Shown here in pieces: positions 12,741-15,209 of a stretch of DNA of 43,986 bases. The stretch's first letter is position 1; each line of letters opens with the position of its first letter. The notes beneath the pieces were generated by a model. That model saw nothing but the letters and a program-made list of their open reading frames with translations, did not search any database and was not told the DNA's origin. Source of the DNA: Thermodesulfatator sp. (lineage in GTDB: Bacteria > Desulfobacterota > Thermodesulfobacteria > Thermodesulfobacteriales > Thermodesulfobacteriaceae); contig JAMOQE010000037.1 of the NCBI GenBank assembly GCA_027064165.1, positions 1 through 43,986 on the forward strand. Reading direction: 5' to 3'. The position numbers were made by a program, and so were the translations under genes.

Positions 12741-12774
12741 AGCCCTTGCCATTGTCGGCAAGGGCTTTTTTTAG
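12741..12774 (+). terminator. Terminator of the HU gene
   Basis: AGCCCTTGCC (12741-12750) pairs perfectly with GGCAAGGGCT (12757-12766) around a six-base loop. TTTTTTT follows on the plus strand and A/T-rich sequence lies on the other side. It also lies at the end of the converging 12771-15209 gene and can serve both. Confidence 0.9.
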
Positions 12775-15209
12775 TTTATTATAAAATCTGAACAGTCGTT
12801 GAAATCTTTTAAATTTTTAAATTCAATGGTATAAAAATTGAAAAAGTGTCTCTTTTTCAAAATTTGAGGAATGCCTAAATTTTTAAAAAACAGATTTTTA
12901 TTAATCAAAAGAAACACCTGCTTATGAGGATGTTTTGAAAGAAAACCGAGGACATTTTCTACATAATAATAAACTCTTACCAGATGGGCCTGATAACAAT
13001 TTTGAAATGCTGTAGAATTTGTACTATTACAAATATTTTTCAAATATTCAGCAAAAGCAGGGTTAAAAAAGTCTACCTCAGGTAGTTTTAACAACTCCTG
13101 TTGAGAAAGCCCTTTTATTCCTGTTTTTTGAATTTTTGCTATTATGTGTTCTGGAATAGAAATTTTATTTATCTCTATGCCTGTGCTATTTGCCCATTCT
13201 AAAAAGTTTTTTATTGAAGTTTCATCCTGTGGGGAGTAAAAAATTGCTATTTTATGAAATTTTTTTAAATATGAAAGTATTTGTTTTAAAATGTTTATCT
13301 GTTTGTCTGTTTCAGGGAAATTCAAAATTATCAATCTTTTTTCTAATAACTTGAGAGCCACATCTTCCGGACCAAGAAGTTTGGAAGTTTGAATAATGGA
13401 CGAAAAATTATTTAATGAAAAATACAGACCATTTCTGCCTTTTATGAGCCTTTTTTTTAGAATTTTGTTTGGTTTTACCCACAATTCAGTAGCATTTAAA
13501 TTGTTTCTGAAAATCTTTATTAAAGAATTGTCTTCAAAATCAGAAACTTTCAAAAACGCTTTAAACTTGAAAGGAGCTGAAGGGGAGGGCATTACAAAAA
13601 AATAAAGCCCCTCTTTAGGAGGAGTTAAAAAATACATTTCTCTGGGTAAAAGACCAAGGAAAATAGCATTTTGTTTTGAGTGGAAAAATTCAGAAACTTG
13701 ATAATAGTTTTTCTGAGAAATTGTTACTATAGAATAATTAAACAGTTTGAAAAAGCTTAAGAAATTTTTATATTTGAAAAGTTTTTCTTTTCTGACAAGT
13801 ACAACTCCCGGGGCTTTCAGCATATTATCAAGACTTATGTCCGGTTCTTTTGGGCTTAATTTTCTATAGATAAGATAATCCGGATCAAGCACCACTGCTT
13901 TGGGAAGGGCAGAAAGTAAGAGTCTTTTTTCTATGTAAGTATTGTTTTTAAAAGAAAGCTCTTGGGAGATGGTGTTGTTAAGAGTAATAATTTGAACTTT
14001 TATATTGTAAGGAATGGGCAGAGAAGAAAAAATGGTATAATCAAATAAATATTTGTTATCTTGTTTAACAAGAAAATTTTTCTGGAAGCTTAAAGAAACT
14101 TTTTTGAAGTATTTTAGCTCTGGAAAAGTGCCATTTTCAAAAAAAAGTTTTAGAAAATCTTTATGGTCTACTGAATGAAAGGCAAATTTTTGATAGAATT
14201 CATTGGTCTTTTCCACGACTTTTTTGTTTTTTAACAGGTTAATTAAAAAGAAGGTGTCCCGTGCAAAGGGGCTCTCTTCTAATAAGAGATTTTTGCGAAG
14301 CTCTTTCTTTTTTGTAGAAGGAAGATAGGAAAGTAAAAAAAAACTAAGCGCTTTCCCAAAGGTCTTATCCTTCCAGTAAACACCATATAAAAGACTATTT
14401 TTTGCTATGGACTGGAAAATTTTTTGGGGCTGAGGGGAGCTATAAAGAGTTATGAATCTTGGAGCAGAGATAGAGCGAGAAAAATTGTTCTCCAGTAAAA
14501 TGAAGTAATTATGAAAGAGCAGAGGAAAGTTTTCAATAACACCGGTGGCATTGGAAACTGCATTTATATTCCTGGTTACAAAATTACAAAGTTGTTTTTC
14601 TGACTTTAAACAGTAAAAAGATAAAGAAAGGTTTTTCAACTTTACTTTTTTCTTTATTAAATTTCCTACAATAAGAGGAGGTGGAGAAGTAGGCGTAGAA
14701 CTTTTGAAAGTGTAAATAGAATAATATCTGGAATGCTTAAGAGAAAAAGATTCATAAGGCACGAGCACATATTTGGAGTTTTTTTTAGGAAGATATAGTT
14801 TTAAATGGTAGGAAAAAGGATGACTCAGGGGATAGGGAAAAAAAGGCAGAAATATTTCTACAGGAAAGGCCCAGAAGTCAACCTGTTTCTTAAATTTTAA
14901 CTTTACTACATGGTGCCTATTGCCTGTAAGAATAAGCATGTTGCCTTCCTTTGAAAATAGGGGAGATATAAGGTGCTTTTTTCCAAGAATTATCTGAGTA
15001 ATCTTAAAGCCTTTGCTATATATCTGATAATTGGTGTTTGGTTTTAAATAAAAGAGTAGTTCACCTTTTATTAAATTTTTTTTAAAATCAAGAAAGATAC
15101 TTCCCTGAACTTTTAAGTTCTGGGTATTTAAATTTCGGGAAAAGACTTGAGGATTGAGAGAAAAAACAATAATAAAAGAAATTAAAATTATATTAAAAAA
15201 TCTGAGCAT
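12771..15209 (-). CDS. Large secreted protein: M1-peptidase-like fold plus ChaN-like domain, catalytic motif absent
   Basis: I start this at the ATG giving MLRFFNIILISFIIVFSLN, a signal peptide with probable cleavage near VFS-RN. The longer in-frame start at 15269 would run into purQ. The 812-residue mature form would be outside the inner membrane. From memory of family patterns, residues about 30-380 follow the outline of M1 aminopeptidases, but where HExxH should lie the sequence reads KNSLLYGVYW (about 270-279). DPDYLIYRKLSPKEP (about 442-456) resembles the linker seen in such proteins. From about 613 to the end it resembles ChaN-type iron/haem-uptake domains (for example FLSKHPHKQVFLLINKN followed by LGIP). 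The domain calls are inference from divergent sequence. No known catalytic residues remain. It is very rich in Phe, Lys, Leu and Asn. Confidence 0.55.
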   Translation of the reverse strand: MLRFFNIILISFIIVFSLNPQVFSRNLNTQNLKVQGSIFLDFKKNLIKGELLFYLKPNTNYQIYSKGFKITQIILGKKHLISPLFSKEGNMLILTGNRHHVVKLKFKKQVDFWAFPVEIFLPFFPYPLSHPFSYHLKLYLPKKNSKYVLVPYESFSLKHSRYYSIYTFKSSTPTSPPPLIVGNLIKKKVKLKNLSLSFYCLKSEKQLCNFVTRNINAVSNATGVIENFPLLFHNYFILLENNFSRSISAPRFITLYSSPQPQKIFQSIAKNSLLYGVYWKDKTFGKALSFFLLSYLPSTKKKELRKNLLLEESPFARDTFFLINLLKNKKVVEKTNEFYQKFAFHSVDHKDFLKLFFENGTFPELKYFKKVSLSFQKNFLVKQDNKYLFDYTIFSSLPIPYNIKVQIITLNNTISQELSFKNNTYIEKRLLLSALPKAVVLDPDYLIYRKLSPKEPDISLDNMLKAPGVVLVRKEKLFKYKNFLSFFKLFNYSIVTISQKNYYQVSEFFHSKQNAIFLGLLPREMYFLTPPKEGLYFFVMPSPSAPFKFKAFLKVSDFEDNSLIKIFRNNLNATELWVKPNKILKKRLIKGRNGLYFSLNNFSSIIQTSKLLGPEDVALKLLEKRLIILNFPETDKQINILKQILSYLKKFHKIAIFYSPQDETSIKNFLEWANSTGIEINKISIPEHIIAKIQKTGIKGLSQQELLKLPEVDFFNPAFAEYLKNICNSTNSTAFQNCYQAHLVRVYYYVENVLGFLSKHPHKQVFLLINKNLFFKNLGIPQILKKRHFFNFYTIEFKNLKDFNDCSDFIIN

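Follow-up and report, generated by a model that had tools for sequence, protein, structure and literature searches.

A putative exported-type double pseudoenzyme, related to M1-ChaN-PDZ fusion proteins, in a Thermodesulfatator genome

Pseudoenzymes are mostly studied as duplicates that stand alongside an active copy. Some pseudometallopeptidases use their pseudoactive site for interaction, and the M1 example discussed in the relevant section of PMC11266112 is Tma108. According to the same section, this M1 relative is thought to bind polypeptides without cutting them, which is akin to the role proposed below; however, it is a yeast protein found at the ribosome and keeps its HExxH motif, whereas the protein described here is an exported-type fusion from a bacterium in which both heads appear dead. 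ChaN is described as haem-binding in the pertinent passages of PMC7979712, which also present EreC, a protein sharing this fold, as a hydrolase that needs no metal and acts via His, Glu and His. In the sections of a microbial PDZ survey devoted to them (PMC6411480), aminopeptidase N-PDZ and EreA-ChaN-like PDZ proteins are separate uncharacterised families. No description of an M1-ChaN fusion, intact or dead, was found in the open-access literature searched.

Such fusions form a family whose layout is, from the N-terminus, a signal-like segment, an M1 part (HExxH...NWxE and the Tyr of GYGKGA), a DPxYxxxRxLxxxE linker, a ChaN part (GExH, GxEM, GxxH) and a PDZ domain. Besides that of Thermosulfurimonas dismutans S95 (L082), they are present in sequence records labelled Nitrospirae, Deltaproteobacteria, Deferribacteraceae, Aquificota and Helicobacteraceae. 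The Pfam profiles Peptidase_M1 (PF01433), ChaN (PF04187) and PDZ_2 all match in 8/8 homologues scanned (from Deferribacteraceae, Hydrogenothermus, Denitrovibrio, Helicobacteraceae, Hydrogenothermaceae, Aquificota, Nitrospira and Deltaproteobacteria). Among 64 named homologues of at least 850 residues, 58 have HExxH within the first 500 residues, the remaining six being from Caldimicrobium or other Thermodesulfobacteriaceae. Alignments A5 and A6 used 53 and 45 of these, respectively, each plus the protein studied here. The 46 rows of A6 comprise this protein, five HExxH-less rows of the Caldimicrobium group and 40 others, and in these 40 the M1 residues H, E, H, E and Tyr as well as the ChaN residues E, H, E, H are all present (40/40), while the Gly is found in 38/40. 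To note, in five gammaproteobacterial loci (L119, L124, L132, L139, L141) an HExxH M1 gene adjoins a divergently transcribed ChaN-PDZ gene, the PDZ being present in 5/5 of these ChaN genes. This split arrangement speaks for a functional connection between the two heads.

The window analysed here is the 43,986-nucleotide stretch formed by positions 1 to 43,986 of contig JAMOQE010000037.1 (Thermodesulfatator sp., GCA_027064165.1). Its minus strand carries an intact ORF of 812 residues at 12774-15209 (ATG at 15209, stop codon at 12771-12773), whose product is read from ORF analysis, homology and an AlphaFold2 model as a putative exported-type double pseudoenzyme with an M1-like and a ChaN-like part. 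The protein is collinear over its full length with the M1-ChaN-PDZ family and shares with the L082 fusion the segment order, the linker and the collinear homology. It begins with a hydrophobic, signal-peptide-like segment (residues 1-24, 15138-15209; recognised by eye, with a helix predicted at 2-18). The M1-fold N-terminal beta domain (residues 30-200, 14610-15122) and third beta domain (residues 373-441, 13887-14093) are delineated by the model and structure matches, and the gluzincin-like helical region between them (residues 204-370, 14100-14600) by alignment as well. The DPDYLIYRKLSPKE linker follows (residues 442-455, 13845-13886); across the aligned family, its D, Y, R and E vary little or not at all. 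A middle alpha/beta region, seen in alignment and model, joins the M1 and ChaN parts (residues 456-607, 13389-13844), and the ChaN-like domain, recognised by homology and alignment, closes the chain (residues 610-804, 12798-13382). All these segments lie on the minus strand; beyond the stop codon, an intrinsic-terminator-like hairpin of 10 pairs (12741-12766, plus strand) separates the gene from a convergent HU gene.

The AlphaFold2 model (54 aligned sequences) has a pLDDT of 84.0 and a pTM of 0.75. Its residues 30-491 resemble M1 aminopeptidases, as with 1z1w (Z 26.3, rmsd 5.2, 399 residues aligned, 9% identity; VIA-align), and the M1 fold, with N-terminal beta, thermolysin-like helical and third beta domains, is present in the predicted structure. 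The HExxH orthologue L082 reaches a Z of 31.1 to 3q7j, also factor F3, versus 26.3 for the window protein. The latter thus shares a predicted fold with tricorn-interacting factor F3 and other M1 aminopeptidases (PF01433), but is devoid of zinc ligands and of a PF01433 match, and its catalytic domain is shorter. The 50 VIA-align rows listed bear the names of enzymes that we take to be M1 members. ChaN is not among the Foldseek and VIA-align matches listed, which are M1 enzymes covering mainly residues 28-492, and this is no argument against a ChaN domain. Searched against solved structures, a profile of HExxH orthologues retrieves M1 and PDZ proteins, and a profile of members of the window's genus yields no match at E up to 1. 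The window protein has matches in 37/60 genomes, its own counted, at E <= 0.001; a scan of genome contigs with the single protein as query found no relative. The observation is not a chance one, because of these matches in 37/60 genomes, a conserved place by PurQ and the predicted M1 fold. The initial annotation, which had proposed an intact 812-residue protein with the segment order of M1-ChaN fusions, an M1-like fold and a ChaN-like end, is borne out by the reading frame, the collinear homology, the predicted structure of the M1 half and, for the ChaN half, sequence homology to a Caldimicrobium orthologue (see below).

Within the gluzincin-like region, no HExxH motif is found, nor is it anywhere else in the 812-residue chain. 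Its position is occupied by QSIAK (residues 266-270, 14400-14414) where orthologues have HEILH in one alignment, and by QKIFQ, a few residues upstream, in another, so that the register may be off by a few residues; the KNSLLYGVYW segment initially placed at the lost site corresponds to residues 270-279. Further on, KALSFF (residues 286-291, 14337-14354) stands where orthologues have EGLVTY. The three zinc-ligand columns read Q, K and K, the Glu that serves as third ligand being a Lys. A block of 25 alignment columns directly preceding the GYGKGA Tyr of HExxH orthologues is also missing. The Peptidase_M1 profile PF01433 has no match to the window protein at E up to 10; it matches 5/5 of the HExxH genomes searched. 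A zinc site elsewhere in the chain is not supported either: in the alignments the usual zinc site of the orthologues falls where it would be expected, and among the columns where the window protein has a residue, none holds a His or Cys in at least 10 of the 11 rows of the window's genus. Six Asp/Glu are invariant in these 11 rows, from which a carboxylate-only metal site may be formed.

The whole protein has a single, weak Pfam match, to ChaN (PF04187; 19.5 bits for a cut-off of 27.7 bits, E 0.0011, residues 667-781), while 10/10 congeners that have the fusion score above the cut-off. Residues 672-805 are 35% identical to the Caldimicrobium orthologue of genome G018 (E 2.9e-22), and it is through homology to ChaN-bearing orthologues that the C-terminus is assigned as a degraded ChaN domain. 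Homology to Campylobacter jejuni ChaN (2g5g) and PF04187 is likewise established via relatives; compared directly with 2g5g, the ChaN part of an intact relative gives a weak match (E 0.016). Unlike C. jejuni ChaN, the window domain has lost the GExH, Glu and GxxH residues and one internal block, and, taken by itself, it scores under the Pfam cut-off. In the alignment the GExH, GxEM and GxxH residues are replaced or deleted, the second GxxH changing from GKGH to NKNL, and LLINKN (residues 767-772, 12894-12911) falls on this motif. The absence of HExxH, of the downstream Glu and of the ChaN GxxH residue, all pointed out in the initial annotation, is therefore seen in comparison with orthologues as well. 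The C-terminal PDZ is missing altogether: 45/46 A6 rows have at least 60 residues there, and the window protein, with 0, is the sole exception. L082-type fusions keep HExxH, the third Glu, the Tyr, the ChaN GExH/EM/GxxH residues and the PDZ, of which the window protein has none. Within its genus, a His displaced by one column from the second ChaN motif in G003 and G006 (SEKHRI, by eye) and a lone His at the first HExxH place in four rows look like relics.

The losses are distributed stepwise in a table of 36 rows of at least 700 residues. All sites are present in 16/16 HExxH rows, which come from the remainder of the order. In Caldimicrobium (g6) and a third genus (g2), HExxH is gone, and all five ChaN sites and 77-79 residues of the PDZ region are kept (9/9 rows, 8 genomes). 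In the window's genus (g1), HExxH and the first ChaN His are gone in 11/11 rows, and the PDZ region holds 0-1 residues in 10/10 complete rows, the row of G004 being cut by a contig end. Zinc-site loss is thus shared across the three genera. Caldimicrobium orthologues resemble the window protein in having lost HExxH and in having PurQ as a neighbour, but differ from it by their intact ChaN residues and PDZ. An rpoB tree (37 rows, quick search, SH-aLRT support only; without G024, for which no match was found, and the partial G037, G039, G040 and G047) groups the three genera with an SH-aLRT of 100 and the window's genus with 99, without fixing the branching order of the three. In the family tree (without the incomplete G004, G037 and G039, the second copy G029b from the same bin, and the short G009, G047 and G037b), a single change suffices for each loss; the window row is long-branched and support for its genus is only 71. 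The sequences thus show a single loss of the M1 zinc site, on the stem that leads to the window's genus, Caldimicrobium and the third genus. Loss of the ChaN residues and PDZ followed in the window's genus, with shortening of the chain.

A horizontally acquired or unrelated protein can be rejected, as the same main groups appear in the family and rpoB trees and synteny is kept at the locus. Two particular cases are to be mentioned. The fusion genes of L031 and L041 (G001 and G013) are 98.6% identical, with RpoB only 95.5% identical (dS 0.07 versus 0.37), which suggests from sequence a recent exchange of the fusion locus between these two species. The Caldimicrobium bin G029 contains two gene copies (L054 and L068) of 94% identity, which probably represent two strains in one bin.

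The surroundings of the gene follow the same division. In the clade devoid of HExxH, PurQ adjoins the gene in 18/20 loci (19 genomes), and a gene of the HU cluster is adjacent or one ORF away in 17/20, HU being identified by Pfam in 3/3 scanned. In the HExxH genomes, PurQ is adjacent in 0/16 loci and an HU-cluster gene lies within two ORFs in 4/16; a cluster of CobB/CobQ-like amidotransferases adjoins the fusion in 10/16 (e.g. L043 5131-6483), two of the 16 loci being cut by contig ends on the relevant side. Four of four scanned members of that cluster match GATase_3 and CbiA, and none of the 20 degenerate loci has it within two ORFs. Dead and HExxH loci thus differ in their neighbours, and zinc-site loss goes along with the switch. 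In the window, TatC comes next after PurQ, with FliJ- and FliI-like flagellar genes beyond. The longest PurQ ORF starts at 15154, overlapping the start of the pseudoenzyme gene; if 15262 is taken as the start, the PurQ product matches GATase_5 right from residue 1.

No paralogue that might have taken over the lost activities was found by Pfam profile. By this means the window genome shows no second ChaN and no M1 protein, and none of the 21 genomes of the three genera has a PF01433 match. PF04187 matches at one place per genome in 24/26 genomes, the two misses, G011 and G012, being 70% and 82% complete. In G012, PurQ stands at a contig end and is hence uninformative on gene absence. In the congener G009, 122 bp separate the reading frames of PurQ and HU (L194 7557-8803), with no recognisable remnant of the fusion gene between them (best hmmsearch E 0.095). 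This genome encodes elsewhere a canonical stand-alone ChaN of 272 residues (GEEH, GMEIF, GKGH; L039 1122-1940), beside a TPR gene. This swap hints at the ChaN side as the part that determines the function, although it is a single case in which chance is possible.

Constraint was evaluated on 18 pairs, of which four with infinite dS were left unused. In seven pairs of the window's genus, without the window itself, dN/dS ranges from 0.087 to 0.306, these pairs sharing genomes (G001 in three). Two Caldimicrobium pairs with finite dS give 0.177 and 0.178 (one at dS 1.6), and intact pairs 0.066 and 0.092, with a further 0.117 at saturated dS. The dS is 1.1 (1.12) for G003-G006, 1.6 for G024-G026 and 2.4, near saturation, for G019-G025. 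Two window pairs give 0.43-0.45 at a dS of 1.8, which is near saturation and not informative; since the window has no close relative, selection on its own branch is not measurable. At the codon level, the values of its genus, above those of the two usable intact pairs, point to modest relaxation and not to free fall. Relative to RpoB, the median dN over 14 independent pairs is 4.4 for intact (n=6), 4.6 for M1-dead (n=3) and 6.4 for doubly dead (n=5) forms, with p 0.13 between intact and doubly dead. Over 142 dependent pairs, taken separately, the medians are 3.3, 5.0 and 5.8. The M1/ChaN dN ratio is 1.36 in intact, 1.98 in M1-dead and 1.24 in doubly dead forms over all pairs, and 1.37, 1.77 and 1.60 over independent pairs, where the later fall is weak. 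The pattern is as if the M1 half had loosened earlier and the ChaN half afterwards.

Taken together, these data make it fairly probable that the protein is an exported double pseudoenzyme, vertically inherited from an M1-ChaN-PDZ fusion and kept as a non-catalytic binding protein. The ancestor would have been an exported-type fusion with two heads, one zinc aminopeptidase-like and the other of ChaN/Tiki type, and with a PDZ tail. It would have lost its M1 zinc site on the branch to the three genera, with ChaN residues and PDZ retained, and then, in the window's genus, these as well, the chain becoming shorter. At present it may perform non-catalytic work in the cell envelope, the still-folded M1 clamp and the ChaN-like face binding a polypeptide or ligand, as a candidate scaffold, holdase or receptor; the ligand is the least certain part, and the ChaN side would be the better guess for binding it, because G009, which has no fusion gene, has a free-standing ChaN. 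In support of this explanation are the retained fold, the stepwise loss within one clade, the dN/dS constraint, the lack of a substitute found, the conserved place and the case of G009. Weighing against it are the deviance of the window protein, the relaxed dN/dS of its genus and, again, G009, which lives without the gene. As a candidate pseudopeptidase, the protein has a predicted M1 fold and has lost the catalytic residues from its sequence, the constraint being seen in sister-species pairs. A bolder version, doubtful to us, has the double shell in use as a binding machine, dead and canonical ChaN doing the same job, so that the essential role of the ChaN family in these cells would be binding and not chemistry.

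The main rival is slow decay, in which uses are lost one by one and the gene drifts towards deletion, the constraint left serving folding and export. We hold it to be somewhat unlikely, though well worth considering: G009 already lacks the gene, the RpoB-relative rates climb from intact to doubly dead forms (in the all-pair medians), and the window protein shares just 24-27% identity with its congeners. Moreover, 35 charged, Tyr or Trp columns are conserved in at least 10 of the 11 rows of the genus, and the window is the exception at 11 of them, which makes it the most deviant member. Conversely, that 35 such columns exist at all argues against mere decay, as do the dN/dS of 0.09-0.31 between sister species and the non-significant rise over independent pairs. 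None of the genome matches listed has an internal stop, and with no stop inside the ORF itself, a broken gene is rejected. The initial proposal that the protein is kept for something other than peptidase activity consequently stands in part: the sister-species dN/dS and the conserved position speak for it, but a somewhat faster evolution, the absence of the gene from G009 and the lack of a close relative on the window branch temper it.

Binding of haem or another tetrapyrrole by the ChaN half without the usual ligands, the M1 half being a spacer, appears improbable. Campylobacter ChaN binds haem, as stated in a passage of PMC7979712, and a ChaN-like lipoprotein falls with haem uptake in the results excerpted from PMC10102347; the CobB/CobQ-like cluster beside HExxH orthologues and the free ChaN that G009 has in place of the fusion point the same way. 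However, the window protein keeps none of the ChaN motif residues, the rows of its genus have no His or Cys in common, and the 20 degenerate loci are without the CobB/CobQ-like cluster within two ORFs. Least probable, and very much so, is continued catalysis, through a different metal site or through an active site newly formed in the old clefts. Zinc loss alone is not decisive here, since metal-free hydrolysis is possible within the EreA/ChaN fold, as the section of PMC7979712 on EreC indicates, and the six invariant Asp/Glu could contribute. Yet EreC uses two His and a Glu according to that section, and their presumed, unaligned counterparts in the ChaN motifs are lost in the window protein, in a genus where no His or Cys is common to at least 10 of 11 rows.

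Pseudopeptidases themselves are already known; what would be new here is a bacterial one with two dead heads. As no active copy was found by Pfam profile, it was apparently a gene present as a single copy that passed from enzyme to non-enzyme. Neighbouring genera of one family still hold intact, half-dead and fully dead forms, which makes the order of events readable, and such orthologues provide matched proteins for testing what M1-ChaN-PDZ fusions do. For the window protein and its congeners, labels assigned automatically, for instance aminopeptidase or haem-binding ChaN, would be misleading.
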